From: a virus
IMG/VR virus record: IMGVR_UViG_3300033388_001133
Coordinates: 1-42,261 of that record
Length of the DNA stretch: 42,261 nucleotides
Direction: 5' to 3' (one strand)
Both the position numbers and the translations under genes were made by a program. Each line of letters begins with the position of its first letter. Within the stretch, counting starts at the first letter, position 1. The notes beneath the pieces are model-generated. The model was not told the DNA's origin. It worked only from the letters and a program-made list of their open reading frames with translations, and ran no database searches. Shown here one piece after another: positions 5,990-23,921 of this stretch.

Positions 5990-6481
5990 TTATGGTACTG
6001 CGTGCGAGCCGACTTGGACCTGTACTTCCAGATGCAGGAAGTCAGAGTTAGCCAATACAGTACTCAAACCATTAGCCACATTCAGATAGTGACCTGAACC
6101 TGACGTCTGGTGATTAGCAATACCAGCCATCTCAAGCTGGTTACTCGAAACCGAGTCAGCAGACCCACCCCAAGTAGCAACTACAACAATCAATTCAAAA
6201 GAGTTACCGACAACAGCACCAACCTTGCGGCTACACTCCAGAATCTCTTGAGAATTGATATGTGGAGTATAGTTAGCTGTACCAATGGCCAGCCAGCCAT
6301 ACTTCGATCCCGTATCAGCAATGGCCCTGTTCGCCAGATTGTTCAGGCCATCAGCTGTTACGATATTTGGAAGCACCTTCCGGTCAACATCGCCATTCGC
6401 CCGGGTAATTGTACGAATGAACGTGCCTTCTAATTTTAGAAACTGCTCCGCTACCTCTGATTCAGAGATATTTCTGTCCAT
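5990..6481 (-). CDS. Small tail/fibre-associated protein
   Basis: 163 residues starting at an ATG that overlaps the end of the upstream glycosyltransferase gene by 20 bases, with GAGGTAGG as ribosome-binding site. The pattern NIVTADGLNNLANRAI, then YGWLAIGTANYTPHINSQEILE and later EMAGIANHQTSGSGHYLNVANG resembles small tail or baseplate proteins that occur before tail fibres in many phages (a GIGT-type turn followed by E..R... and a GIF-like strand). No enzyme motif is seen. Assignment is by pattern and neighbours. Confidence 0.55.
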   Translation of the reverse strand: MDRNISESEVAEQFLKLEGTFIRTITRANGDVDRKVLPNIVTADGLNNLANRAIADTGSKYGWLAIGTANYTPHINSQEILECSRKVGAVVGNSFELIVVVATWGGSADSVSSNQLEMAGIANHQTSGSGHYLNVANGLSTVLANSDFLHLEVQVQVGSHAVP

Positions 6482-12150: not shown

Positions 12151-14430
12151 CTATCCTCCAAACCCTTGTTGTGGGTTAATGCTCGGTGGCCGACTGTACC
12201 GGGAACCTGCTAACTGATCCTTGCCTTCCACATCAGTATCTATAACAGTCACCGGAACAAGGATGCTTCGGCACTGATGATGGTTTGGCGGTCTGTACTT
12301 ATTCCATACTGGCGAATCTAATGGATACACTCTGTCGTCCAAATGATTACATATCCTCGTGGTACGAGAATCCAGTATAGCTGAGTATTCCAAAGCCTCC
12401 ACGAATCCGTCCAGTTCCGGGTCTGTGAAGATACTATACCTGGCCTCGTTGAGCGCCTCAAATATAGTTGTCCGCACCATGCTCTCCACCCTGTGCAGCC
12501 CTGCGCTCTGGCCTATTGCTTCGGCTATCTCGTCGGCTATGCGCCCGGTGGCTGCGCTGTTGATGTCGATACCGATGAACCCGGCCACCACGAACTCATC
12601 ATAAATCTTATTGGTGATCTGATCGGTAGACCACGAGAACTTCACGCCATTAATCAATATACTCTGAATGATTGTCCGCATATCGTCCGACATAGAGCCG
12701 AATGCCCTGAACCCATTTAACCGGAGAAACTCAGCAGCCTCCTCGTCAATACGGCCAAAGTTGAGCTTAAACGATTCCTTGCGGGCTATCAGCAGTTCCT
12801 TCTTAGAATGCTGGATGCCAAGTGCCCATGCCTCTGCTAACGAGTTCTCGATTGCCTTACGCACCCTTGTCTTTTGTTTCGGGTGGAAATCCACTGTTTG
12901 TATTGCGGCGAGTGGTGCAGCCGGGGTTCCCAGTTTCTCCTCCTCAATTCGCGCCACTAGATCAGCGACCATATCCCCAATCCTCTGGTTCAGGGTCGCA
13001 ACAGCGTCACCCTCAATTTTATTGGTCTGGCGTTCTATTACTGCGGTGCTGACTCGCTTCTCAGCCCGGGCGAATGCCACCTTGTTATTGGTGCGCATCT
13101 GGTTCGGGTCTTTAACTGGGTCTCGATCCCCGGTCTGGCCTTCTGGTTGCTTGTTCGCTTCGCCAATCTTAATCTGGAGGTTCAACGGCTCAGTCTTATC
13201 CGGGAATTCCAATAACTGCCGCAGATGATCCTCATCCGACTGAGATGCCTCGACACTACCCGCAGTCACTAGCTCCTGCCAGGTCTTGACCAGTTCGATC
13301 TTCTTCGACTCGGAGACTGATTTAAACTTAAATATTGGGCCTACACCATCTGCGAAGTTTAACCGGGATAGTGGGTTGAAGATTTGCTCATTGAGCGCCT
13401 CCTGTAGACGTGTAGCATCCGCGTCCAATGTCCACAGGAAAGCCTCAAGCTGCGTGTTCGCTTGCGCGAAACCACCACCACCGCTGGATGCTTGGGGAGT
13501 AATTCCGAGCAGGTTGGGCACCAGTAAAGCCTTAGCAATTTGGAGGTCATGGAGGGCAATAGCCTTTTCGTATTGATCTGTCGTTGAGGGATGTTCTACG
13601 TCCATGTCGATATTGGCTGGAAGTAGAATGCTGGTTGAGGTTTGGATAGAGTTCATCGCCGCGAGCATCTGCGCATACTCGGGAGTTCCCGGCGTTAGGG
13701 CTGCTCCGCTGCTTGGCTTCCCAATAACGAACCCACCCCCAAACCTTTCCAAGAACTGATTGTAGAGTCTGATGATGATGTCTTTGGAGTACCAAGAACG
13801 ATATGCTTCCCGGAGGTCGGACTGGCCATAGTGTTGATCGAATTCTGGATTTTGTACATAGTAAACAAATCTGTCGAGATCAATTGATTGCTCCTCTCCG
13901 TCGAACTTCTGGATGGTCTTGGTGATCGTGCCCCACTTATCAGTCTTGAACTCGAATGTGCTGAATGGCTTGGGTATTAACTGCTGCACCCCGAGATATG
14001 GCTTGCCTTTAAAGTCAAATGTATCTACCAGTTTCTCGGTCATCGAGAATCCCTGATACATAGCCATCAGTATGTAATTCATGCCGTCCACGAAACTGCC
14101 GTATGTCTCCCTCACCATCGCTTCGTATATCTCAATTCGCTCTTCATTCTGCTCGTTGGACTCGTCGTTGGCGCCGGGCATCTCAAACATCCAGTCCCGC
14201 GCCGTAATAGCGTCACGCTTGAACCTAACAACTGCCTTCACCTGCTCGTCGATCATCATCTTTTTATAGATGTCGTGGCCTTTTCGCCCAATCAGCGTGT
14301 CTGGGTTATACTTGGGGAAATTGCCCTGATATAGCTGAGAGTCGCTCCAGCCTACCTCTTTGGCTCCGACCAGACGTGGGTCGATGACTGGTGTGTCTTT
14401 CTTGAACCTACTAAAGAATGGAACATTCAT
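12151..14430 (-). CDS. Portal protein (DUF935/Mu gp29-like) fused to Mu F-like minor head domain
   Basis: 759 residues from an ATG at 14430 that overlaps the terminase 3' end. Residues ~1-440 follow the Mu gp29-like portal pattern (IYKKMMIDEQVKAVVRFKRD, then QLIPKPFSTFEF and LLVPNLLGI). Residues ~560-735 match the Mu gpF/SPP1 gp7 minor head family: VRTTIFEALNEARY, then SAILDSRTTRICNHLDDRVY and PPNHHQCRSILVPV with the conserved His/Cys positions. In Mu and most relatives these are two separate genes, so this is a fusion. The protein forms the DNA entry vertex of the capsid. Confidence 0.88.
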   Translation of the reverse strand: MNVPFFSRFKKDTPVIDPRLVGAKEVGWSDSQLYQGNFPKYNPDTLIGRKGHDIYKKMMIDEQVKAVVRFKRDAITARDWMFEMPGANDESNEQNEERIEIYEAMVRETYGSFVDGMNYILMAMYQGFSMTEKLVDTFDFKGKPYLGVQQLIPKPFSTFEFKTDKWGTITKTIQKFDGEEQSIDLDRFVYYVQNPEFDQHYGQSDLREAYRSWYSKDIIIRLYNQFLERFGGGFVIGKPSSGAALTPGTPEYAQMLAAMNSIQTSTSILLPANIDMDVEHPSTTDQYEKAIALHDLQIAKALLVPNLLGITPQASSGGGGFAQANTQLEAFLWTLDADATRLQEALNEQIFNPLSRLNFADGVGPIFKFKSVSESKKIELVKTWQELVTAGSVEASQSDEDHLRQLLEFPDKTEPLNLQIKIGEANKQPEGQTGDRDPVKDPNQMRTNNKVAFARAEKRVSTAVIERQTNKIEGDAVATLNQRIGDMVADLVARIEEEKLGTPAAPLAAIQTVDFHPKQKTRVRKAIENSLAEAWALGIQHSKKELLIARKESFKLNFGRIDEEAAEFLRLNGFRAFGSMSDDMRTIIQSILINGVKFSWSTDQITNKIYDEFVVAGFIGIDINSAATGRIADEIAEAIGQSAGLHRVESMVRTTIFEALNEARYSIFTDPELDGFVEALEYSAILDSRTTRICNHLDDRVYPLDSPVWNKYRPPNHHQCRSILVPVTVIDTDVEGKDQLAGSRYSRPPSINPQQGFGG

Positions 14431-15946
14431 TCGCAACTGTCTCCAATGTATTTCCTAGCACGACCAGTGGCACGCCTGGAATCAATATAGGTGATTGTGT
14501 CGCAAACTGCATTGCCTCTGAATCGGCTCTATCCGGGGACACTATGCCGGCATCAACCATTTCTTTCTTGGTCATCAGGTCTTCAATCTTTTCCATGCCC
14601 GGCTTGCGCTTAATAGAGCACAACTGTGCATCGTGGTCATCCCACTCGTTCTCGTCAATGTAATCCTCGGCCACCACCAACTGCCCGTTCCGGTAGTTGT
14701 CCCTTAGCACCATATAGCTCTGCACCCTCCGGTTACGCCACTCCTCAATGTTGTCACTCCGGGAACCACCCATATACCGAACCACGGGCAAATGCTTCTT
14801 TATACAGTCGCTCACCACCCCGGCGCCCACGCCCAGAGCATCCACCACCACATCGTCCCCATTCTCCTTCAACATCCCGTTCTTAACCCAGATGCGCTCT
14901 ATCTCATCAGCGGTCATGCCTGTGGCTTGTCCGGCTGGGAAGGAATGCTTGGTTTGCTTGGTGAAGTAGGTAAAGGACTGGTATCGAATGCTTTGGGTAA
15001 TGACAGTAAAATTGCCTCCCCCATCACTACAATCGACCGTGATCCGTTGTCTCGGTATAGACCCATCTGGTATATGGGGCCTGTTCCTAGCAGCAGTGAG
15101 CCACTCCAAGGAAATAAGCTGGTTCTCGTCTTCATCAGCAAACTCTCCATAGCAACGAACCCGCACAACCGGAGAATCCACACCGTACTTCTCCTCCATT
15201 TCAGTGACCCACTTCCGGGACACACGGGTCGTTTTATTCAAATCAACGTGAATCTGGTGATAATACTTACTGACTGCTGGTTTTAGATGACTGTCTGCGA
15301 ATGTGCCCTGCAGCTTGGTGGGGTTGCCTATAAGGAGCAGAATGACGATTATGCCCGTGCTGAGCGCACCCTCAATAACTGGATACATTTCCTCGTCAAC
15401 ACCGGATGCCTCGTCAACCACTATCAACATAAAATTGTCGTGGTAGCCCTGCAGGTTTTCCGGGGTCGCTCCGGTTTCTGCGATACACTTCCAGTTGGCA
15501 TCCTTATACCACTCGACCTCCGTGGCCCTAACCTCAAACGTCCTGCGCCAGAACTCTGTTCCCATTCCCTGTATCTTTCGGATGTTCGGCCATAAGCGAT
15601 TCTTCAGCTGCTTAATTGTCGGGGCAGTAGCAGGGGAAATGCCTTTAAAGCCCGCATGCCACCATACGATTGCCGCTGCAGCAAAGAACGTCTTGCCCGG
15701 GCCGTGCATGGCTCGAATGGTAAATTTCTGTCTTGCCTGGAAGTTATGCTTTAATGGGAATAGTATCTTGCCTGCTTTCTCGTTATACCAATGTCGTACG
15801 CAATCGGCCATCGCGTCGAATGCCTCAACCTGCCATATATCCAATTCTATGGAATAAGCTGTTTGGAGGAACCAGACTGGATCAGTTCTGATCTTTATGG
15901 TGACATCTTCGGCCAGTTCGGCCATCTCCTCGCGATTGAGACTCAT
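14411..15946 (-). CDS. terL: Terminase large subunit
   Basis: 511 residues. The ATPase half has a Walker A at residues 82-86 (MHGPGKTFF) and a Walker B ending in DE at 174-179 (LIVVDEAS), then a coupling segment LLIGNPTKLQGTF. The C-terminal half shows the RNase H-like nuclease acidic positions (TVDCSDGGGNF, then VVDALGVGAGVV and SPDRADSEAMQ). It cuts concatemers and drives DNA into the prohead. The start overlaps the upstream gene as ATGA; no strong ribosome-binding site is seen, so coupling is likely. Confidence 0.93.
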   Translation of the reverse strand: MSLNREEMAELAEDVTIKIRTDPVWFLQTAYSIELDIWQVEAFDAMADCVRHWYNEKAGKILFPLKHNFQARQKFTIRAMHGPGKTFFAAAAIVWWHAGFKGISPATAPTIKQLKNRLWPNIRKIQGMGTEFWRRTFEVRATEVEWYKDANWKCIAETGATPENLQGYHDNFMLIVVDEASGVDEEMYPVIEGALSTGIIVILLLIGNPTKLQGTFADSHLKPAVSKYYHQIHVDLNKTTRVSRKWVTEMEEKYGVDSPVVRVRCYGEFADEDENQLISLEWLTAARNRPHIPDGSIPRQRITVDCSDGGGNFTVITQSIRYQSFTYFTKQTKHSFPAGQATGMTADEIERIWVKNGMLKENGDDVVVDALGVGAGVVSDCIKKHLPVVRYMGGSRSDNIEEWRNRRVQSYMVLRDNYRNGQLVVAEDYIDENEWDDHDAQLCSIKRKPGMEKIEDLMTKKEMVDAGIVSPDRADSEAMQFATQSPILIPGVPLVVLGNTLETVANECSIL

Positions 15947-16365
15947 TGCTGTCGAGCAGCTTCTGCAAATGCTAGTAAGGCGCGATCTGCCGCACTAGAA
16001 AGGTCATCAGTGTTCTCGATAGCCTTCAAATCAGGCATGACCTTATTCAGCATTTTAAGGATGGTATCAATCTGCACTTTCCTGCCAGCCTGCCGAGTAT
16101 GGTAAACTGCTATAGTCTCCTTGTCCAGTGTGGTACTGGTATAATGCTCGGTGCGAAGTAGCTTGCCTTCACCGTCCATTACCTCGCGTTCAAACTGTTG
16201 GACTGAATCCTCCAGTTCCTTGTCAATTGATTCAAGATCGGAGAGGTGCTTTTGCAACTGACCTAGAAGGGCTGGCCCTACCAGATGGTCACGAAGTGGC
16301 TGCTTCTTTTTGGTACGCTTAAATGGCGTAACTACTTGGAGATTATTTTGTCGTTTTCGTGTCAT
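15943..16365 (-). CDS. Putative terminase small subunit
   Basis: 140 residues: a basic N-terminus (MTRKRQNNLQVV, then FKRTKKKQPLRDHL), a helical middle with LQKHLSDLESIDKELEDSVQQF, and a helical C-terminus. It is the first gene of the late strand and overlaps the large terminase start as ATGA, the standard place for a small subunit that recognises pac or cos. No HTH can be named with confidence, so the role is from position. Its start borders the CA/TG-poor block. Confidence 0.6.
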   Translation of the reverse strand: MTRKRQNNLQVVTPFKRTKKKQPLRDHLVGPALLGQLQKHLSDLESIDKELEDSVQQFEREVMDGEGKLLRTEHYTSTTLDKETIAVYHTRQAGRKVQIDTILKMLNKVMPDLKAIENTDDLSSAADRALLAFAEAARQQ

Positions 16366-17593
16366 GATTTTAATCAGTTCTGACTGGATACCTTGGTGAT
16401 TTTTTCAAATTTTCCTTGGCTGAAAGTTTACCCAATGCCGGGCCTCGCTTCGTAAATAATCGGGGACTCGATTCGGATCGCGTACCTAAGCCGTTTCTTC
16501 GTTCAATCGCCCTCCCCTCCCCTCCCCTCTCGAAATGGTTACGAAAGAAACTAAATGGCTAGACCTAGTCTAAAATGGATAATACTAGGCCCGAGGATCG
16601 CGAGGAGACGGCGCGAGCGCTTCGAAATGCTACGCGGGAGTCTACCCTAAGGAGTACCCGGGGGTCTAGGAGATCGTCTATTCTAGCCAAAATTAGCCCT
16701 ATTCCCGAGGGATTACGGATACTTAACCGAGCGCGACCTAAGGTCGGAGCGATTTTTATTCTTACCTAGATAGGTAGGCCGAATACGGTTCTAAACCTTC
16801 CCGGTATACTCGAACTATAGACCGTAAGCTATTGATATATATACTATATATATAGTCCCCTAATAGGGCTATAAGGGTAGGGAATATCGGCCCGACTTCC
16901 CCTTAGGGGACGCTCTTTTTACGCTTCTAAGTCTTTGATTTTAAAGGAGATTCGACTTTCCCCTTATATATCAATGGCTTATATATCGGCCTCTCTCGGC
17001 CTCTCGGAACTAGCCGGAATCGGACCTAGTTCTAAGCCTCTCTCCCGCGAATCCCGGACCTCGATCCCGGACTATCGGCCCGGGGGAATCGGCCCGGAGA
17101 GGCCCGTAGAATCGGCCTCGAATCGGTCCCCGGTCCCCGGGGGAATCGGCCTCGAATCGGAGACTATTAGACTTAATCTAAAATGGATAGAATTAAATTC
17201 CTTTTACTCTCCGATTCGGGCTATACTCGGGGTTCTCGGGAATAAGCCTCCCCGTCGAATCGGGGACTAAACGATTCTAACCCGAGCGGATCGCGAGCTA
17301 GTCGGAAATCTAGGTTTAGTAAATCGACCTTTTTTCGCTAACGAAGCGGGACGAGAATCGGGGAATACTCGGTCCCCTTAACGCCCCCGGGTTTAGATCG
17401 TAGGCCGCGTTACTTACGAATTAAGAAAGCCCGAAAGTCTCGCGTATTCGTAATCGAAGTTAAGGATAACCGCTAGCGTTTTTAGCGCGGTTCGAATCGA
17501 TAAGGAAAGTCGATTTAGTACGCGGTTTTAATTCTTTCGAGTCGGGTAGTTCCCGGCGCGACTTTCTTAAATATTTTTTCTCTCTCCTTACGA
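16366..17593. other. Divergent non-coding region: candidate promoter, pac/cos and origin region
   Basis: About 1.2 kb lies between the leftward late genes and the rightward early cassettes. From 16,441 it is nearly free of CA and TG. It contains a four-tract G-run motif, an AT-rich near-palindrome (GATATATATACTATATATATAG, 16,833-16,854) and about nine copies of AATCGG, densest from 17,020 to 17,240. Because TTGACA and TGnTATAAT both contain the missing dinucleotides, consensus sigma-70 elements are nearly impossible here. Only TTGATA (16,832) and TTGATT (16,935) come close, and neither has a well-spaced -10. Open frames at 16,575-16,769 and 16,935-17,270 are probably chance, since TGA cannot occur. 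Packaging or origin function is inferred from position. Confidence 0.5.
16510..16527 (-). other. G-quadruplex-forming motif (minus strand)
   Basis: The plus strand reads CCC T CCCC T CCCC T CCCC, so the minus strand carries four G runs of 4, 4, 4 and 3 separated by single A residues. Single-base loops make this a strong quadruplex candidate. It sits ~145 bases upstream of the putative terS start on the transcribed side and ~70 bases inside the edge of the CA/TG desert. Confidence 0.7.
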
Positions 17594-17624
17594 AGTTTCC
17601 CCGGTTCGCCGGGGGAACTTTTTT
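17594..17624 (+). terminator. Intrinsic terminator upstream of the first cassette
   Basis: An 11-bp stem (AGTTTCCCCGG with CCGGGGGAACT, one T.G wobble) closed by a TTCG loop and followed by six T residues. It implies that a rightward transcript begins upstream in the non-coding desert, so a short leader or small RNA may be made there. Confidence 0.75.
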
Positions 17625-17681
17625 AAGTCGATTCGATTTTACGCGATTCGATTTAACGAAGTTTAACCGAGGAGAATAGTC

Positions 17682-17852
17682 GTTAATATTTACCTAAGAA
17701 TTATCGATCCTAAAACGCGAACCGTTAATAATAAAAAACTTTTCGGAGACCGTTACGAGGAACCCGCGAACGCGATTCGTAGACTCGAAAGAGTTTCCCG
17801 AGAAGCGAGAGAACGCGGTCTAATAATTACGTATCGATTTAAAGATACGTAG
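17682..17852 (+). CDS. Cassette ORF with a canonical ribosome-binding site but no ATG
   Basis: An open frame of ~56 codons lies after GAGGAG (17,669-17,674). The codon at the position where all other cassettes have ATG (7 bases on) is GTT, and the frame also contains ATA, GTC and ATT but no ATG, GTG or TTG. The reading ends IRRLERVSREARERGL and ITYRFKDT before a TAG. It looks like a real helical basic protein, and the next cassette hairpin follows its stop at the usual distance. Either a non-standard start is used or the gene lost its start. The whole frame has no CA or TG. Confidence 0.45.
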   Translation, partial: VNIYLRIIDPKTRTVNNKKLFGDRYEEPANAIRRLERVSREARERGLIITYRFKDT

Positions 17853-17930
17853 TCGATTCTAATAGTCCCCGGTTCGCCGGGGATTCTATAGAGTCGTTTC
17901 TTTTCGAAACGATTTACGAGGAGAGTAAAA
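17853..17930 (+). promoter_or_regulatory. Cassette leader: two hairpins and ribosome-binding site
   Basis: Hairpin A is CCCCGG-TTCG-CCGGGG (17,867-17,882), followed by the linker ATTCTATAG. Hairpin B is TCGTTTC/GAAACGA, directly before ACGAGGAGAGTAAAAATG. There is no T run, so it is a leader element, not a terminator. An almost identical hairpin A precedes the next gene. Confidence 0.7.
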
Positions 17931-18287
17931 ATGCCTAAAGAATACGAAGTCTTTTTATCGACGTTAGATAATACGTCGAGCGACGTTATCGAAAACGCTA
18001 CCGACGAGCGCGACGCGGTTATTTATTCCGCTAACCGTTACGTCGATAAGGCGAGCGATTCCTTTTCGTTCGACGGTTATCGTTACGATATTTTCGAAAC
18101 GGTTTCGCGTATCGAATTAGCGTTAACCTTCGCGAATTTCGAAAGCGATTCGGATTCTATAAACGATCCCGACCCGCTTATTTTCTACGTCGATTTAGTA
18201 ACCGATCCCGTTACGCCCTTTCCGGTAGGCTCGGAAAACGAAGCGGATTATTTCGAAGATAAGAGAGCGAACGACGACGGTTTTTAG
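17931..18287 (+). CDS. Acidic small protein of unknown function, CA/TG-free gene
   Basis: 118 residues, rich in Asp and Glu, starting after GAGGAGAGTAAAA. The only TG in the gene is in the ATG; the protein has no Gln, His, Cys, Trp or internal Met. Asp is written GAC before codons starting with G and GAT before those starting with A, so the avoidance works across codon junctions. No family recognised. Segments RYDIFETVSRIELALTFANF and PLIFYVDLVTDP suggest a compact mixed alpha/beta protein. Small acidic early phage proteins are often host-enzyme inhibitors or DNA mimics, but nothing specific shows that here. Confidence 0.75.
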   Translation: MPKEYEVFLSTLDNTSSDVIENATDERDAVIYSANRYVDKASDSFSFDGYRYDIFETVSRIELALTFANFESDSDSINDPDPLIFYVDLVTDPVTPFPVGSENEADYFEDKRANDDGF

Positions 18288-18385
18288 TTAGTCGATTCTA
18301 ATAGTCCCCGGTTCGCCGGGGGCTCTATAGAGCCGATTTAATAAGCTCTACGCCCGGGCGTTACCCGGTTACGAGGAGAGTAAAA
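18288..18385 (+). promoter_or_regulatory. Cassette leader: hairpins and ribosome-binding site
   Basis: Hairpin A repeats CCCCGG-TTCG-CCGGGG (18,306-18,321) with the same AATAGT prefix and CTATAG suffix as the previous leader. It is followed by TAGAGC/GCTCTA and a GC-rich CGCCCGGGCG palindrome, then ACGAGGAGAGTAAAAATG. Confidence 0.7.
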
Positions 18386-18736
18386 ATGACTACGAAAACG
18401 AAGGTAGAAAAGAAAGTCGCGAGTAAAAAGGTATCGAAGAAAGTTAGTAAAAAGGTATCGAAGAAAGTCGCCCGTAAGTCGATAGACGAGAGTCGTTCGA
18501 TTCGCGGTTTCCCCGGAAACGAAAACCATTTTTATAAAGGTTTTCCCCGCGCTCTCGCCTACGCTATTTTAATTAAGGCGAAAAATCGTACGCTTAACGT
18601 CGCGAAGTTTCTCGATAAAATCGAGAAGTTAAAAGGCGTTAAGAATCGAAGCGCGGCCCGAGGTATCGTCGCGAAGTTAGTCGATAAGCCCGGAGACGAC
18701 GGACGGAAAACTAACTCTATAGCTAAATTCGTATAG
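18386..18736 (+). CDS. Lys-rich DNA-binding-like protein, desert paralogue of the 30.8-kb gene
   Basis: 116 residues. The N-terminal ~32 residues are a histone-tail-like Lys/Val/Ser repeat (VASKKVSKKVSKKVSKKVAR). Residues 49-101 form a small globular domain, FYKGFPRALAYAILIK then FLDKIEKLKGVKNRSAARG. It aligns with residues 91-141 of the protein at 30,805-31,266 at about 25 identities in 43 aligned positions. Where that paralogue has Gln or Cys in the aligned block, this one has Ala or Ile. The gene has one CA apart from its start ATG. A nucleoid- or DNA-binding role is likely from the basic tail; the globular family is not recognised. Confidence 0.75.
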   Translation: MTTKTKVEKKVASKKVSKKVSKKVSKKVARKSIDESRSIRGFPGNENHFYKGFPRALAYAILIKAKNRTLNVAKFLDKIEKLKGVKNRSAARGIVAKLVDKPGDDGRKTNSIAKFV

Positions 18737-18814
18737 AGCGTTTTTATAATCTCCGATTCGAAAGAGTCGGGGATTTTATAAAGCGAAATTCCTTCGCTTA
18801 ACGAGGAGAGAAAA
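18737..18814 (+). promoter_or_regulatory. Cassette leader: hairpins and ribosome-binding site
   Basis: Hairpin A pairs ATCTCCGATT with AGTCGGGGAT, ten pairs of which two are T.G wobbles. Hairpin B is AAGCGA/TCGCTT. Then comes ACGAGGAGAGAAAAATG. The wobbles preserve pairing only in the plus-strand RNA. Confidence 0.65.
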
Positions 18815-19063
18815 ATGACTAATTTTATCGTAGGAGTATTTCTAACGGTTCTAACTTTCGTAGTCGGGGAAGTCGCGTATATTTTAACGCTAACCGAAAA
18901 CGTCGAGCTAATCGGAGGCTATTTAGTATTCGGTTTCTTTACGTTTTCCCCGGTCGTTTTTTACGGGCTCGGTTTCGCTACCGGGCGTCCGGTTAAATCG
19001 AACCGGAGAAAATTTTCTCCGGTCGGACGCGAGTATTTCCCCGGCGAGACGTACGAACGATAG
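18815..19063 (+). CDS. Small two-helix membrane protein, CA/TG-free gene
   Basis: 82 residues with two hydrophobic segments, ~3-26 (FIVGVFLTVLTFVVGEVAYI) and ~33-57 (IGGYLVFGFFTFSPVVFYGL), then a basic tail KSNRRKF. Apart from the start ATG the gene has no CA or TG. An inner-membrane protein is likely; early phage membrane proteins of this size can act in superinfection exclusion, but nothing here proves it. Confidence 0.72.
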   Translation: MTNFIVGVFLTVLTFVVGEVAYILTLTENVELIGGYLVFGFFTFSPVVFYGLGFATGRPVKSNRRKFSPVGREYFPGETYER

Positions 19064-19140
19064 AGGTCGATTCTTAAAGTCTCCGGGCGCGGCCCGGGGA
19101 TTTTATAGAGTCGAGTAATTCGATTCGAGAGGAGAGGAAA
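19064..19140 (+). promoter_or_regulatory. Cassette leader with ribosome-binding site leading to ACG
   Basis: Hairpin A pairs GTCTCCGGG with CCCGGGGAT (wobble included), then TTTATAG, a TCGAGTAATTCGA inverted repeat and GAGGAG at 19,129-19,134. Six bases further, where other cassettes have ATG, the sequence is ACG. Confidence 0.6.
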
Positions 19141-19203
19141 ACGCGGCCCGGGAGCGATCCCGGGAGACTAGGCCCGAGGTCTAGCCCGGTTCGAAATAAA
19201 TAG
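19141..19203 (+). pseudogene. Remnant or ACG-initiated 20-codon ORF after an orphan ribosome-binding site
   Basis: The frame from ACG at 19,141 runs 20 codons to TAG at 19,201. It is preceded by a complete cassette leader and GAGGAGAGGAAA. A single T-to-C change, ATG to ACG, would remove the only TG of a start codon. The encoded peptide is low-complexity (Pro, Gly, Arg, Ser), so it may be the decayed head of a former cassette gene. ACG initiation is possible but weak in bacteria. Confidence 0.35.
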
Positions 19204-19262
19204 TTTCGTTAGTAACCATTTCGAGATCGAGAAAAACGACGCGAGAAAATAAGCCCGGGAGA

Positions 19263-19418
19263 AATCCCAGCCGCCGAATTCTCAGCGACCATTTTTTATA
19301 CCAGCCGCCAAATTTCCATCCGCCATTTTTAATCGGTAAGAATCCCAGCCGCCGAATTCTCAGCGACCATTTTTTATACCAGCCGCCAAATTTCCATCCG
19401 CCATTTTTAATCGGTAAG
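19263..19418. repeat. Perfect 78-bp tandem duplication with internal sub-repeats
   Basis: Two identical 78-base units abut at 19,263-19,340 and 19,341-19,418. Each contains two related half-units that begin CCAGCCGCC and end CCATTTTT. The element CAGCGACCATTTT occurs in each unit and closely related copies lie at 23,667 and 23,686, on the far side of the cassette array. The repeat marks the exact end of the CA/TG desert. Protein-binding iterons or operators are plausible. It is not a CRISPR array: there are only two units and no spacers. Confidence 0.85.
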
Positions 19419-19449
19419 AAATAATTTCTTACCACTGAGGAGAGTTAAA
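19413..19449 (+). promoter_or_regulatory. Leader hairpin and ribosome-binding site
   Basis: GGTAAGAAAT/ATTTCTTACC (19,413-19,433) forms a 10-bp inverted repeat directly before ACTGAGGAGAGTTAAAATG. The same architecture, with a different stem, precedes the gene at 20,660. Confidence 0.7.
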
Positions 19450-19746
19450 ATGTTTATAGTAGAATTATTCGAATGGGAAATGAGTTGCTATAATAAGCCT
19501 AAATTGGATCGCTTCGATACTTTGGAAGCCGCCGAAAAGGAATTCCAATCCGCCGTAGGATTCGCGTATATCTGGCTAGAGTCTAATGCCGTAGACGATT
19601 CGATTGATAGTATTGCTCTAAGCTACGACGCCGATAGTAATGGCGAAGTAAACGACGCCGAGAATTATATCCAATGCGTTACGTTCGTAGACGCTAGTGG
19701 GTTTAGCCAATGTACGTTATTCTCGATACTATTGCGTAAAGAGTAA
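19450..19746 (+). CDS. Small acidic cassette protein, unknown
   Basis: 98 residues, start after GAGGAGAGTTAAA. It contains RFDTLEAAEKEFQSAVGFAYIW and ends FSQCTLFSILLRKE. No family recognised. CA/TG use is about half of normal, and almost all cases are in ATG, TTG or CCAA contexts, so this gene is transitional between the desert and the rest of the genome. Confidence 0.7.
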   Translation: MFIVELFEWEMSCYNKPKLDRFDTLEAAEKEFQSAVGFAYIWLESNAVDDSIDSIALSYDADSNGEVNDAENYIQCVTFVDASGFSQCTLFSILLRKE

Positions 19747-19809
19747 CCTTATTGGGTATTTGAAAGAGTATCCAATATAGGTCGTTCTGACCTAACGAGG
19801 AGAGTTAAA
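19747..19809 (+). promoter_or_regulatory. Cassette leader hairpin and ribosome-binding site
   Basis: TATTGGGTAT pairs with GTATCCAATA, with wobbles, around a short loop. A second GGTC..GACC inverted repeat follows, then AACGAGGAGAGTTAAAATG. Confidence 0.6.
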
Positions 19810-20064
19810 ATGAAACGTAAAGCCATTATGAATATACTACGACTGGCTGACCCGGTAGACGCGGCAATTGATCTACCGTTAGAGGATCGTCGCCACATCG
19901 TCGAGGTAGTCGAGGAAATGCGCGACATCGTCGAAAAGACGGGACCGCATCCAATGGGGTTCGATCCAATCGTCGAACTGGGCCGCGACTATACCTGTAA
20001 TACGCCAGATTGCGAATCTACCGACCTAGACGGTATTGGTAATTGTTTCGCCCACGGAAAGTAG
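19810..20064 (+). CDS. Small cassette protein with Cys/His C-terminus
   Basis: 84 residues: a helical N-terminal half (IDLPLEDRRHIVEVVEEMRD) and a C-terminal segment YTCNTPDCESTDLDGIGNCF followed by AHGK, which could bind zinc through C-x4-C and C-x2-H. The start follows GAGGAGAGTTAAA. No family recognised. Confidence 0.68.
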   Translation: MKRKAIMNILRLADPVDAAIDLPLEDRRHIVEVVEEMRDIVEKTGPHPMGFDPIVELGRDYTCNTPDCESTDLDGIGNCFAHGK

Positions 20065-20128
20065 TCTTATAGCCTATCCCAAAAGGGTAGGCTCTATAGA
20101 CCATTTTCGGTCTACGAGGAGAGTTAAA
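20065..20128 (+). promoter_or_regulatory. Cassette leader: two hairpins and ribosome-binding site
   Basis: Hairpin A is AGCCTATCCC-AAAA-GGGTAGGCT (20,071-20,093, one T.G wobble), followed by CTATAG. Hairpin B is TAGACC/GGTCTA (20,097-20,114), directly before CGAGGAGAGTTAAAATG. Hairpin B recurs at 20,604-20,620. Confidence 0.7.
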
Positions 20129-20566
20129 ATGAACGATAGAAATAAAAGATCGGTAGCCAGTTTGGTAATAGCCAGAGACGCTATTAACGAAGCTATCCGC
20201 CAAATCAATTTAGTACCTACCGCGTTGTGGGTGTGGCGTGAATTGTCCGAGAACGAGAAGGGCGAACTGGACTGGTACAACGGCGTCGAAGATGAATCCG
20301 CCAAAATCTGTAATATCGAGATCGACGGATTTATTGGCGACATCGTTATGGAGTCCAATCTGGTAGAAATCCACATCTACGATAGCGGCAATAATGACTG
20401 GCGCAGTTGGTACCGGGACTTTGGTAAGCAGGACGGTAACGATCCATTCACTAACGATAGTGAACTGGGCTATATATTCGGTCGCTGGGTAGTTCAGGAG
20501 CTCACCCAAACGCCGGGTATCGGAATTGACGACATCCGCGATATTTTTAAGATGACGCCCCACTAG
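20129..20566 (+). CDS. Cassette protein of unknown function
   Basis: 145 residues. The ATG at 20,129 follows GAGGAGAGTTAAA; an upstream in-frame start at 20,036 lies inside the previous gene and is rejected. The sequence has SVASLVIARDAINEAIRQIN, ALWVWRELSENEKGELDWYN and a C-terminal IGIDDIRDIFKMT. CA/TG use is near normal. No family recognised. Confidence 0.7.
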   Translation: MNDRNKRSVASLVIARDAINEAIRQINLVPTALWVWRELSENEKGELDWYNGVEDESAKICNIEIDGFIGDIVMESNLVEIHIYDSGNNDWRSWYRDFGKQDGNDPFTNDSELGYIFGRWVVQELTQTPGIGIDDIRDIFKMTPH

Positions 20567-20659
20567 AGTGATCTAATAGCATCCGCCATTACGGGGGTGC
20601 TACATAGACCATTTTGGTCTACAGGTACTAAATAATTTAGTACCACTGAGGAGAGAAAA
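20567..20659 (+). promoter_or_regulatory. Cassette leader: three inverted repeats and ribosome-binding site
   Basis: TAGCA.../...TGCTA is followed by TAGACC-ATTTT-GGTCTA (20,604-20,620) and GGTACTAAAT/ATTTAGTACC (20,624-20,644). Then comes ACTGAGGAGAGAAAAATGG. The last stem abuts the ribosome-binding site exactly as at 19,413. Confidence 0.68.
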
Positions 20660-21367
20660 ATGGAAACAACGTATAGTAGAATTCGCAGTTCCAATCGCGA
20701 TAAGAAAGACTGTACGGTTGTAATGGTATCCGTGGTCTGCGGCATACCTTACCAAGAGGCATTCGATCTGCTTGAGGCAGAAGGGCGCATAACTGGGAAG
20801 GGATGTGGCGCAGCTATCTACGATAAGGTCATCCGCGAACAGGGATTTGAACTGGAGCGACTGACCAATAGTAGAGGTCATCGACCAATCCGCGAAGGCA
20901 TCCGCCCACTTCAATCCAAGACCGTTCGTACCATAGAACGGGAACTGGCGCGATATTGGGGCGGCCAGAAAGTCTACGTCAACGTCAAAGCGCATATACT
21001 AGCGTGGGACGGTACGGAATGTGTAGACTGGAGCGTGGGACGGCAGCACCGGGTTATATCGGCATATTTGGTATATAAAGGTGATCTACCATCATCTGGA
21101 ACATGCGTTCCAGAGCCAGAGCGGCAGTCTCTCAACCGAGTCGGTCAGACGAGAACTGGAGTCACCGCTCATCTAGTCGGTGAGCCGCCAGTCGATTACA
21201 GTTCAGTCGCAGCCGCATACCGGGCACTAGGCCTGAGCCTAAAAGGTCACCAAAAGGTCCGCCGCTATGTTAAGTACCACGGCAAAGCGACCTTCTGGGC
21301 CTATAAGAATAAGGCTAGTGATGAGTGGTATAGCGACCAGGTTGAGGTAACCATTACAGTACGATGA
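20660..21367 (+). CDS. Papain/C39-like cysteine peptidase-fold protein
   Basis: 235 residues, the largest cassette gene. KKDCTVVMVSVVCGIPYQEAFDLLEAEGR (residues ~15-43) matches the N-terminal catalytic-Cys helix of a common phage papain-like/C39-like fold. VNVKAHILAWDGTECVDW (~107-124) supplies the candidate His and Asp. The C-terminal ~50 residues, with LKGHQKVRRYVKYHG, look basic. Whether it cleaves peptides is not known for such phage proteins. Position in the early array suggests a host-directed or regulatory role. Confidence 0.6.
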   Translation: METTYSRIRSSNRDKKDCTVVMVSVVCGIPYQEAFDLLEAEGRITGKGCGAAIYDKVIREQGFELERLTNSRGHRPIREGIRPLQSKTVRTIERELARYWGGQKVYVNVKAHILAWDGTECVDWSVGRQHRVISAYLVYKGDLPSSGTCVPEPERQSLNRVGQTRTGVTAHLVGEPPVDYSSVAAAYRALGLSLKGHQKVRRYVKYHGKATFWAYKNKASDEWYSDQVEVTITVR

Positions 21368-21438
21368 GAGTTCAGCTAGAGTGTATCCAATCTACCGGGT
21401 ATACTCTATGGTGCACTTTCGCACTAGAGGAGAGAAAA
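21368..21438 (+). promoter_or_regulatory. Cassette leader: two hairpins and ribosome-binding site
   Basis: AGAGTGTATCC pairs with GGGTATACTCT, with G.T and T.G wobbles. A second stem GTGC-ACTTTC-GCAC follows, then TAGAGGAGAGAAAAATG. Confidence 0.65.
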
Positions 21439-21771
21439 ATGACTAGGTCAAATGTACGTGCCGCGAACATGCGGCGTACCAATCGACGGATCCAGTTCAA
21501 GGAAAAGGCTATCCGCGAAACAGAGGCCAGAGCACATCGGCAGCAAGTCCGCCAGATTGCTAAGGCTCCAGCGCCATCCGCCATCCGCAGAATGTTCATG
21601 CGGGTTAGTGGCTGGCTCAATGATCTGTTTAGCATCCGTGGCCACAGCGCTATTAGTGGCTTGGACTTTCGCATCGACCGTGGTGAACGCGGCAGAGGCG
21701 CGAGGCAGTTGCGCTCTATCTTCGGCCAATCGCTGAAGATGCGTTCGACGCGAGATGGGAGGCCAGTGTGA
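21439..21771 (+). CDS. Small Arg-rich protein
   Basis: 110 residues from the ATG at 21,439 after GAGGAGAGAAAA; an upstream start at 21,364 would bypass the leader and is rejected. It is strongly basic (NMRRTNRRIQFKEKAIRETE, RAHRQQVRQIAK) with a short hydrophobic stretch RMFMRVSGWLNDLF. It may bind nucleic acid. No family recognised. Confidence 0.65.
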   Translation: MTRSNVRAANMRRTNRRIQFKEKAIRETEARAHRQQVRQIAKAPAPSAIRRMFMRVSGWLNDLFSIRGHSAISGLDFRIDRGERGRGARQLRSIFGQSLKMRSTRDGRPV

Positions 21772-22043
21772 ATGGCGCAATAACCGTCCAGATATACGAT
21801 TTTAACGACAATCTAATAGTCGTTCCAATGTTCCAGCTACTACAGTGGAAACATTCTATCAGTCTGGAGATGAAGGGTCTGCGCAATTCCCGGGGCAGCG
21901 TCACCGCTCATGTTAGGCGCATTCTATCTGCGCCGAAGTCTTATAAGCGTGAGCACATCTACGATCATCTCAAAACTACCATTGATGATCTCACCGCGCA
22001 ACTGGATGGAACGACCGAGCTCAATCTACAACCAATAGAGTAG
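21768..22043 (+). CDS. Small protein of unknown function
   Basis: 91 residues from a GTG at 21,768 that overlaps the previous stop (GTGA), with GGGAGG nine bases upstream. It contains TVQIYDFNDNLIVVPMFQLL and a helical C-terminal half (YKREHIYDHLKTTIDDLTAQ). It is the first array gene without its own leader hairpin, so it is coupled to the previous gene. Confidence 0.6.
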   Translation: MNGAITVQIYDFNDNLIVVPMFQLLQWKHSISLEMKGLRNSRGSVTAHVRRILSAPKSYKREHIYDHLKTTIDDLTAQLDGTTELNLQPIE

Positions 22044-22110
22044 AGTTCATCACTAGGGCATTAAGGAGTGCCCTAACTGATGCATTCCGCATCGTTCTGA
22101 GGAGAGAAAA
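22044..22110 (+). promoter_or_regulatory. Cassette leader: two hairpins and ribosome-binding site
   Basis: AGGGCA/TGCCCT (22,055-22,074) is followed by GATGC-ATTCC-GCATC (22,079-22,093), then CTGAGGAGAGAAAAATG. The second hairpin recurs base for base at 22,699-22,713. Confidence 0.7.
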
Positions 22111-22536
22111 ATGAGTTGCTGTATGACGAAACTGACCGGGCTCAATATCGGTCGTGAGCAGTGGTACGAGTTCTATCACAGACTGCGTAAGTCTGGGGCA
22201 GGGTATCGCATCCTCGGGCCAACCGATCCATTGGTTGAGAAGATGGAGATCAGCACTATCATCCGCAAATTCGAAAAGGATGGTAAAGTGAGGATCAGCG
22301 ATAGATTCCACGACTGTGACCACGCCGTGAGCACTTGTACGCGGCTAGTTCAGGCGACCCTAGTACATGTCATCGCTCATATGGATGATCTGTATAGCAA
22401 TGCTGAGGGCTGCGGTAGCGCGTGGATTCATTCGCCCGACGATACCTGCGATCCCGATTTCCGGGATTTAGCACTAGAAGCATTCGAGGATGGTCATGCG
22501 CATAGTATCAGTGAAGTGCGTTATGAAACGCATTAG
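22111..22536 (+). CDS. Cassette protein of unknown function, Cys/His-rich
   Basis: 141 residues. It begins MSCCMTKLTGLNIGREQWYE, has FHDCDHAVSTCTRLVQATLV and a C-terminal CGSAWIHSPDDTCDPDFRDL. Several Cys and His could bind metal, but no known zinc motif is clear. Start after GAGGAGAGAAAA. Confidence 0.68.
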   Translation: MSCCMTKLTGLNIGREQWYEFYHRLRKSGAGYRILGPTDPLVEKMEISTIIRKFEKDGKVRISDRFHDCDHAVSTCTRLVQATLVHVIAHMDDLYSNAEGCGSAWIHSPDDTCDPDFRDLALEAFEDGHAHSISEVRYETH

Positions 22537-22609
22537 CTGGTACGAGGAGCATTGGAAGAAATGCAAACGGTGCCAGGAGTCTGATCCAGACCAAACCTGG
22601 CCTAAGTAG
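22523..22609 (+). CDS. 28-residue Cys-x2-Cys peptide
   Basis: A short frame overlapping the 3' end of the previous gene: MKRISWYEEHWKKCKRCQES, then DPDQTWPK. The C-x2-C pair between basic residues resembles half of a zinc ribbon. The next leader begins directly after its stop, which supports it as the last gene of this unit; no strong ribosome-binding site is visible. Confidence 0.4.
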   Translation: MKRISWYEEHWKKCKRCQESDPDQTWPK

Positions 22610-22726
22610 AGTTCATCTACAGTCTATTACTACGCCAATCAGGGGAACGCTACAGAACCCCGAATGGCTGTTAAACCATGCGTGGTAGTAGACTTTATGA
22701 TGCATTCCGCATCGAGGAGAGAAGAA
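22610..22726 (+). promoter_or_regulatory. Long-stem leader and ribosome-binding site
   Basis: AGTCTATTACTACGC (22,621-22,635) pairs with GCGTGGTAGTAGACT (22,680-22,694): 15 pairs, two of them wobbles, enclosing an inner GGGG/CCCC stem. A GATGC-ATTCC-GCATC hairpin (22,699-22,713) then abuts GAGGAGAGAAGAAATG. Confidence 0.7.
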
Positions 22727-22927
22727 ATGGCTATAGAATACTACGTCAAACGTAAGCTCAAGGGCGGCCAATACCGGCACGTCAAGACTTGTACGACTGT
22801 CGAGCAGGCACGACGCGATATGCAACTGCTCAACGACCGTAAAGAAACTGATACTGTCTATGGTGTGTTTTACTCGGAGGATGCTATTGCTGATTATCAG
22901 ATCAGACATCCACTGGTGAGCCCATGA
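22727..22927 (+). CDS. Small basic protein of unknown function
   Basis: 66 residues from the ATG at 22,727 after GAGGAGAGAAGAA. It begins MAIEYYVKRKLKGGQYRHVK, then TTVEQARRDMQLLNDR and VYGVFYSEDAIADY. The pattern suggests a small beta-alpha-beta protein. No family recognised. Its stop overlaps the next start. Confidence 0.62.
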   Translation: MAIEYYVKRKLKGGQYRHVKTCTTVEQARRDMQLLNDRKETDTVYGVFYSEDAIADYQIRHPLVSP

Positions 22928-23253
22928 GTCTTAATAGATTGATGTGCCCACGCTGTCAGGAACTGATGAGTTCCAATCGAACTCGCTATGCTATAAGTCG
23001 CCGGGATAACAAAACCAAAATTTGTTCCCGGTGTGGCACGCGAGAGGCATTGGAAGATTCAGGCCTGGTGGAACCTTGGTTTACTCAGTATATTGCTTCG
23101 TGTGGTCTAGTTCATCGACCGTATTGGGATACGAATTCCCCGGTCTGGCAAGCGCAACTGGAGAAGCAACACGACGAGGAAACTGGTATCGATAAGCTCA
23201 AAGCGGAGGCCGAGGCGGATTTACCAATGATGCTTCGGAACCAAGCAGAATGA
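22924..23253 (+). CDS. Zinc-ribbon protein
   Basis: 109 residues, start overlapping the previous stop (ATGA). MCPRCQELMSSN (C-x2-C) and SRRDNKTKICSRCGTREALE (second C-x2-C) form a zinc ribbon of a type common in phage early regions. The C-terminal half is helical and acidic (QLEKQHDEETGIDKLKAEAE). A nucleic-acid or protein adaptor role is probable; the specific function is unknown. Confidence 0.68.
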   Translation: MSLNRLMCPRCQELMSSNRTRYAISRRDNKTKICSRCGTREALEDSGLVEPWFTQYIASCGLVHRPYWDTNSPVWQAQLEKQHDEETGIDKLKAEAEADLPMMLRNQAE

Positions 23254-23564
23254 ACTATCGTAACCATAGCATGAGTGAGCTAGTGACGGTCTTGAGCACT
23301 GAGCAGGACCATCACGTTTTCATCGAGGCAGCCAAAGTCTTCATCCAGAAGTTTGTCGATGGGAATTATGTTCCCCGGGAGATTCACGATGAGGCAATCT
23401 CTGAAAGAGAGCATGCTGCTGAAATGAAGGGTTATGACGAGGCACGCGATAACTGCCGCGAGGAGGCACTGCGCATCATTGACGCCAATAAGTGTTGGCT
23501 GCTACATGACGGCTACCAAGAAGATTGGAACCAGATGAGGCCGCTGTTCATGGTAATTGGCTGA
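23250..23564 (+). CDS. Small helical protein of unknown function
   Basis: 104 residues, start overlapping the previous stop (ATGA). Mostly helical: HHVFIEAAKVFIQKFVDGNY, HDEAISEREHAAEMKGYDEA, NCREEALRIIDANKCW. It is the last gene of the array, directly followed by an unused GAGGAGAG and the terminator. No family recognised. Confidence 0.65.
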   Translation: MNYRNHSMSELVTVLSTEQDHHVFIEAAKVFIQKFVDGNYVPREIHDEAISEREHAAEMKGYDEARDNCREEALRIIDANKCWLLHDGYQEDWNQMRPLFMVIG

Positions 23565-23613: not shown

Positions 23614-23921
23614 GGCCACGATTTAGCAATTCCACCCTAAGTCCCTAATACTATAGCGAAAGTACAGCGACCATTTTAAATCACAGCGACCGATTTTGGC
23701 CCAGTTCATGTCCCCAATAAAAATACTTCCTTTATACAGAAAAAACGAGGATACTAGACGGGCTTTCAAGACTCGGGCATAATCAAGTCTGCTAACTCTC
23801 CTCAGGGTTGCGGGTCTGCCCGGGGGTAAGACTCCACCGTGTCGGTTACCCAACCACAAAACACGTTTGAGCACCCCGGCGTAGACTTTCTTTTTGGGGA
23901 GTACCTGAGGAGATTGGTTGC
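23614..23921. other. Non-coding boundary between cassette array and replication operon
   Basis: Contains two copies of CAGCGACC followed by ATTTT or GATTTT (near 23,667 and 23,686), matching the element in the 78-bp repeat at 19.3 kb. AT-rich stretches at 23,718-23,750 could hold the operon promoter, but I cannot assign -35 and -10 boxes with confidence. A minus-strand frame across this region looks like chance. Confidence 0.45.

Follow-up and report, generated by a model that had tools for sequence, protein, structure and literature searches.

The stretch of DNA analyzed here, called the window, is the complete IMG/VR record IMGVR_UViG_3300033388_001133 (42,261 bp), a phage sequence in which the dinucleotides CA and TG are nearly absent between positions 16441 and 19266. 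This block adjoins the terminase genes, and a series of early genes, numbered 1 to 7, reads away from its terminase-side edge. The features of the region are as follows.

14411..15946, minus strand: large terminase subunit (TerL), matching PHROG 2 terminase large subunit (E 7e-27)
15943..16365, minus strand: putative small terminase subunit, by position beside TerL only; normal CA/TG; marks the left edge
16441..19266, unstranded: block nearly without CA/TG, from dinucleotide counts
17931..18287, plus strand: gene 1 (P0001), first open reading frame of the early series; 118 amino acids (aa), acidic, net charge -20, pI 4.05
18386..18736, plus strand: gene 2 (P0002), basic, 116 aa, conserved HFYKGFP; homologues in the relatives L003 and L004 (58 and 53% aa)
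18815..19063, plus strand: gene 3 (P0003), 82 aa, hydrophobic; homologues in L003 and L004 (35 and 43% aa)
19450..19746, plus strand: gene 4, synonymous CA/TG z-score -5.6
19810..20064, plus strand: gene 5, z-score -3.3
20129..20566, plus strand: gene 6, z-score -2.7
20660..21367, plus strand: gene 7, z-score -0.7, about normal; L003 homologue 49% aa
19267..21600, unstranded: graded flank, with normal CCA/TGG and a decaying depletion of DCA/TGH (D = A, G or T)

The block holds 5 CA and 11 TG, i.e., 16 sites against ~350 expected (observed-to-expected ratio (o/e), 0.05). This recount bears out the figures of the original prediction, made from the sequence alone, and the loss proved stronger than first claimed. 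In the core (17201-19200), CA/TG o/e was 0.00 to 0.02 per 400 bp, and outside the block and its right flank the window is almost everywhere near or over expectation. Four sites had been counted in the core, three of them start codons; the start codons stand, but five sites remain in 17200-19266, the other two being one His codon and site 19217. Among 3,218 1-kb windows of other viral loci, CA/TG o/e averaged 1.10 (standard deviation, 0.15) with a minimum of 0.36, so that none came near the block value. The longest CA/TG-free run measures 748 bp (17185-17932), compared to a maximum of 120 bp in 1.8 Mb of those loci. They are a convenience sample, partly picked by CA/TG-poor patterns, and the bias, if any, is toward low values. 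Given the spread of the 1-kb ratios and the comparison of the longest runs, a chance origin of the block is excluded.

CA and TG are both depleted beyond the expectation from composition, on both strands, in genes and in noncoding DNA including the untranslated leader, which agrees with the breadth first described (intergenic DNA, leaders, and genes). Since both dinucleotides are gone, untranslated leader included, the target is DNA and not one RNA strand. RNA-level targeting was rejected on these grounds, as was an avoidance of start codons, which would remove TG only. Palindromic restriction avoidance as the sole cause was also discarded, because every CA context is gone, palindromic or otherwise. 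Codon choice in the block depends on the next base, as had been noticed: Asp is encoded by GAC before G (n = 9) and by GAT before A (n = 6), and neither GAC-A nor GAT-G occurs. We then kept the protein sequences constant and sampled codons according to their usage in this genome. The resulting synonymous CA/TG z-scores were -8.1, -8.5, and -7.2 for genes 1 to 3, weakened to -5.6, -3.3, and -2.7 for genes 4 to 6 and -0.7 for gene 7, and ranged from -1.5 to 2.5 for later genes. The proteins of genes 1 to 3 contain no Cys, Gln, or Trp, no Met past the start, and a single His, and are thus written in a 15-letter amino-acid alphabet plus the start Met and that one His. The combined share of His, Gln, Met, Cys, and Trp is 0, 0.9, and 0% in genes 1 to 3 and at least 9% in all other genes. 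Together, the amino-acid shares and the graded z-scores indicate that the amino-acid cost is confined to the block, whereas the codon cost reaches farther.

On the left, the block begins sharply at ~16437, ~75 bp upstream of the putative small-terminase gene. On the right, its boundary is twofold: CCA/TGG is back at once from 19267, inside a 78-bp tandem repeat, and DCA/TGH recovers gradually, with ratios per 400 bp of 0.17, 0.41, 0.36, 0.62, 0.67, 0.82, 0.91, and 1.06 from 19.2 to 22 kb. The rightward fading of the depletion spans ~5 kb, and CA/TG use is normal only from about 20.8 to 22 kb, so the original prediction was wrong in placing normal use from 20.1 kb. The different right boundaries of CCA and DCA suggest either two agents or one with a context preference. 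The tandem repeat (window 19256-19411) carries the motifs CAGCCGCC and CAGCGACCATTTT, and the motif CAGCGACC recurs at 23665 and 23684 (23665-23700), past the end of the early operon.

We then examined the 16 sites that survive in the block. Twelve fall in assigned elements, namely, three start codons, one invariant His codon, IHF-consensus sites (four), and long repeats (four); those at 16504, 16556, 16628, and 16688 have no assigned element. Besides the start codons, the elements that keep CA or TG are listed below.

16528..16553, plus strand: left arm of a 26-nt inverted repeat (92%), near the left edge of the block, keeps TG 16536
19201..19226, minus strand: right arm of the 26-nt inverted repeat, keeps CA 19217
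16560..16581, plus strand: 22-nt direct repeat TAGACYTARTCTAAAATGGATA, copy 1, keeps TG 16576
17168..17189, plus strand: 22-nt direct repeat TAGACYTARTCTAAAATGGATA, copy 2, keeps TG 17184
16825..16837, minus strand: IHF-consensus site WATCAANNNNTTR, by consensus match, keeps TG 16833
16928..16940, minus strand: IHF-consensus site, by consensus match, keeps TG 16936; flanks conserved in L003
16969..16981, plus strand: IHF-consensus site, by consensus match, keeps CA 16972 and TG 16975
18527..18529, plus strand: invariant His codon (NHFYKGFP), the sole CA/TG within the block genes besides the starts; invariant in L003 and L004

The IHF consensus WATCAANNNNTTR has six matches in the entire window, and three of them cluster at 16825-16981. 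L003 and L004 contain parts of these elements as well; the element at 16969..16981 reads TATAAGCCATTGATATATAA on the reverse strand, and its L004 version is TATAAGTCGTTGATATATAA. IHF may bind the three sites, judging from the consensus, and such sites hint at a proteobacterial host. The pattern of survivors looks like a purging of dispensable sites in which functional-looking ones were spared.

The relatives L003 (TerL 80% aa) and L004 (69% aa) share the terminase edge with the window, have a noncoding gap there too, and encode homologues of genes 2 and 3. CA/TG is ordinary there; the most that is seen is a slight dip, with DCA at ~0.5 in individual 500-bp bins. Since these two relatives have the same genes at the same place with normal CA/TG, the CA/TG-free trait is lineage-specific. 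An insertion of foreign DNA was rejected, as the relatives carry genes 2 and 3 in synteny. The closest relative by its polymerase (G003, 92% aa), a sister phage at ~83% nt, has a contig that does not contain the region; comparison with it showed that the window misses ~12 kb between its two ends, which gives a genome of ~54 kb. No further relative with the region was found in IMG/VR or among GTDB genomes, and protein scans with P0002, TerL, the polymerase, and gene 7 returned no second CA/TG-free case. DNA-pattern scans for additional relatives gave chance matches only, and scans of genome contigs with TerL and the polymerase revealed no host, prophage, or relative. A virulent siphovirus-type phage is suggested by the tape-measure and tail-tube proteins in G003, a J-like tail fibre, and a polymerase, primase, and helicases of its own.

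Palindromic 6-mers are avoided in this genome: 199 occur at 22-42 kb against 323 ± 16 expected, and 15 of the 64 do not occur anywhere outside the early region. Of 20 palindromes testable in the block, 10 are missing compared to 2.3 expected, and these are mostly words also absent outside it. The lineage therefore appears to be under restriction and to respond by site loss. Neither the larger genes of the window nor the additional 12 kb of G003 included a recognizable DNA-modification gene, except for a glycosyltransferase-methyltransferase fusion, and PADLOC returned nothing. The fusion (window 6462-9419, 985 aa) lies among structural genes and joins glycosyltransferase, methyltransferase, and second glycosyltransferase domains. 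Other cases of word avoidance were seen in the compared phages. In L004 with L142 and L008 (G002), GGACC (GGWCC) is nearly absent (2 versus 40 expected, both strands counted). An unrelated 46.5-kb phage (L193-L195; G006, IMGVR_UViG_3300036944_000960) avoids many 4-mers genome-wide (AGAG 0.05, GATC 0.06, and CTCC 0.08 of expectation) and has CA/TG at 0.54 throughout. A tailed phage (L167/L196; G007, IMGVR_UViG_3300044260_000003) has CA/TG at ~0.56 over 20 kb and CACA at 0.09.

The genes of the region gave few matches. For the putative small terminase subunit, a significant family match was not found. Gene 1 matched no sequence among phages, Pfam, PHROGs, or PDB chains, and no gene 1-like open reading frame was recognized in L003 or L004. 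Homology of gene 1 to Ocr or ArdA was not detected by sequence, and its structure model was unusable (predicted local distance difference test (pLDDT), 37). A second, diverged P0002-like protein (L139, G001:C1:2747-3046; 40% aa) is found elsewhere in the genome of a relative. Upstream of gene 1, ATTTTTTCTCTCTCCTT (window 17573-17625) is kept in L003 and L004 and is complementary to the common leader of the early genes, GAGGAGAGNAAAAATG; after it comes a strong terminator-like hairpin with a T run (z-score -4.6, 17540-17630). This region is a possible small RNA pairing with early ribosome-binding sites. Rfam gave nothing over the gathering score. One or two stable hairpins and GAGGAGAG stand before several early genes (window 17845-20130). 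GAGGAGAG occurs in 12 copies (17918-23563), and the unit of hairpin and GAGGAGAG extends past the CA/TG-free block.

In order to separate mutation from selection, we compared the block with a forbidding model, i.e., a first-order Markov chain of the remaining genome in which CA and TG are forbidden, with zero fitted parameters. The model predicted GC 0.486, CG 0.097, and TA 0.102, and the block has 0.473, 0.112, and 0.086, respectively; its GC content is unchanged. The CG enrichment in the original prediction was found again (o/e 2.0), but it is mostly an arithmetic by-product, since forbidding CA and TG alone yields CG 0.097. One-way A-to-G mutation at CpA, which the original prediction had named as a candidate, would give GC 0.62 and CG 0.188, and one-way C-to-T would give GC 0.36 and TA 0.192; both were rejected on the mismatch in GC, CG, and TA. 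Thus, the block does not carry the one-way product signature of a CpA-directed mutator, be it similar to repeat-induced point mutation (RIP) or an adenine deaminase. In the aligned genes, the block has Ala (GCG) for a Gln common to both relatives, Leu (CTA) for a Met common to both, and Tyr at a Trp or His position; most of these replacements require more than one base change. Altogether, selection is favoured over mutation, with a mutator and a long equilibration after it as the less likely possibility.

We propose that the block is the leading genome end on entry into the cell and that it was purged by selection because a host agent reads CA/TG on double-stranded DNA, a reading to which we give an even chance of being correct. 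We favour it because of the terminase-side edge, the graded decay, the spared sites, the effect on both strands, and the avoidance of palindromes. Selection on first-entering DNA had been among the candidates of the original prediction and fits these data best, although we infer both the order of entry and the agent. Position 16.44 kb would be the physical terminus and would enter first, a reading of the terminase junction as a genome end that is taken by analogy from lambda, T5, and T7. The agent would recognize CA/TG in the earliest phase of infection, most strongly where A, G, or T precedes CA. The pressure would drop with distance if later DNA arrives once the agent is blocked or irrelevant, and the order of entry would then be the cause of the gradient. 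In phage phiFa, protective spacers act on early-injected DNA (PMC7515739), and in T7 the first gene yields Ocr while the DNA is still entering (PMC12707154). By its charge and position only, the acidic gene 1 could be a DNA-mimic countermeasure. As for the identity of the agent, we would prefer a restriction-like nuclease with a very short recognition site, then a DNA-binding protein or small molecule that binds CA/TG steps and blocks early transcription, and then a CRISPR effector with a TG protospacer-adjacent motif (PAM). A nuclease of a two-base site would need dense host modification for self-protection; an intercalator or DNA-binding protein would need none. We advance only tentatively, and with more doubt than belief, the further idea that an unrecognized bacterial innate defence, protein or small molecule, reads CA/TG on incoming double-stranded DNA and that the phage rewrote the 3 to 5 kb that enter first.

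Several points weigh against selection by a CA/TG reader. We know of no restriction enzyme with two-base recognition and of no agent with such a dose response. As 16 sites survive, no single site can be lethal. L003 and L004 also avoid palindromes, yet without the CA/TG trait, and the trait is known from one genome only. Furthermore, CCA and DCA differ in the flank, for which a single dinucleotide reader offers no obvious explanation.

The best surviving alternative, which we nevertheless consider unlikely, is an internal need for CA/TG-free DNA, for packaging or end structure, an origin, a nucleoprotein scaffold, or shielding from a phage-made nickase or modification. The block does cover the terminase-proximal noncoding region with its three IHF-type sites, and the 26-nt inverted repeat bounds it. 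However, two syntenic relatives manage with normal CA/TG, which also weakens the structural need listed in the original prediction, and genes 1 to 3 are affected too, with genes 4 to 6 following in a graded manner. A phage-made DNA modification was rejected, as no such gene was recognized beyond the fusion described above.

A two-way mutation at CpA, e.g., by damage or deamination during entry or end processing, could erode the genome end and leave essential sites to purifying selection. Spared functional sites and decay with distance are equally expected from such a local mutator, and a 50:50 mix of CA-to-TA and CA-to-CG predicts GC 0.486, near the observed value. The same mix predicts AA 0.065, AC 0.059, and TA 0.127, whereas 0.093, 0.047, and 0.086 were observed, and the one-way versions are off by 11 to 15 GC points. 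In addition, the multi-step replacements (Gln CAG to Ala GCG, Met ATG to Leu CTA) argue against it, and TGG or CAG changed to stop would be lethal in genes that remain open. We regard it as improbable.

It is very unlikely in our view that the phage evades a host CRISPR system with a two-base TG PAM by having lost PAMs from its early region, the part in which spacers work best. A TG PAM is reported for Cas12c1 and OspCas12c (PMC9522604) and TA/TG in CasY systems (PMC6509639), early-injected regions yield effective spacers in phiFa (PMC7515739), and a PAM readable on either strand would remove CA and TG alike. CRISPR, however, selects only spacer-adjacent sites, a near-complete purge would demand very long and dense spacer coverage, and a preference for DCA over CCA is no known feature of it. 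There is a slight chance that the early transcription of incoming DNA is blocked by an intercalating small molecule with a CpA/TpG-step preference, produced by the host or by neighbours. Small intercalators naturally recognize a step of two bases, and daunorubicin halts a T5-like phage after first-step transfer (PMC13250531). Rebeccamycin is listed with a preference for TpG(CpA) and GpT(ApC) (PMC3317384), but ApC is 0.047 in the block against 0.045 in the forbidding model, so the agent would not be rebeccamycin-like; nogalamycin, considered as a CA/TG-step intercalator, was set aside since it is listed with little sequence specificity. Finally, assembly error, foreign DNA, or compositional drift has a very low probability: the evidence is a single contig and some other phages are CA/TG-poor genome-wide (0.54-0.56), but the open reading frames, the conserved residues, the neighbours' leaders, the synteny with relatives, the unchanged GC content, and an o/e of 0.02, far under any other window, speak against it.

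A search of the open-access literature gave no described system with a CA/TG-exclusion signature, and the remark of the original prediction that it knew of none stands. If the cause were mutational or structural instead, the block would still be a natural, near-complete dinucleotide exclusion for which no precedent was found. If a CA/TG reader is involved, the sequence would record the specificity (DCA over CCA), reach (~5 kb), and strength of a hitherto undescribed defence. The nearest known phenomenon is the avoidance of restriction sites by phage genomes, including Type II palindromes (PMC6286503). There too, words read by host nucleases are removed by selection, as seen here for palindromic 6-mers. 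In contrast to the known words, which are several base pairs long and avoided partially and genome-wide, the word lost from the block has 2 bp, ~95-98% of it is gone, the loss is graded and confined to what would be one end, and whole amino acids are removed. CA/TG, at two bases, is not a restriction recognition sequence known to us, although its loss may still work like restriction-site avoidance. The first-step transfer or leading region of T5 and the ocr gene of T7 (PMC12707154) are similar in that first-entering DNA would be special here too, and gene 1 resembles Ocr in being acidic, about Ocr size, and at the head of an operon, a likeness of size, charge, and place only. They differ in that no Ocr homology was found for gene 1 and in that first entry is here proposed from gene position. 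To our knowledge, neither T5 nor T7 lacks a dinucleotide. Fungal RIP converts CpA to TpA and depletes the same pair, CA/TG, but it lowers GC and accumulates TA, whereas the block has unchanged GC and raised CG, as the forbidding model predicts. Vertebrate RNA viruses avoid CpG under ZAP, an innate sensor that reads a dinucleotide. That avoidance concerns RNA, animal hosts, and one strand and is moderate, in contrast to the near-total, regional loss on both strands of a phage's double-stranded DNA. If a bacterial innate defence did read CA/TG on incoming DNA, it would be a prokaryotic DNA counterpart of the dinucleotide sensing by ZAP, and the phage would have answered it by nearly abandoning five amino acids in the products of genes 1 to 3.

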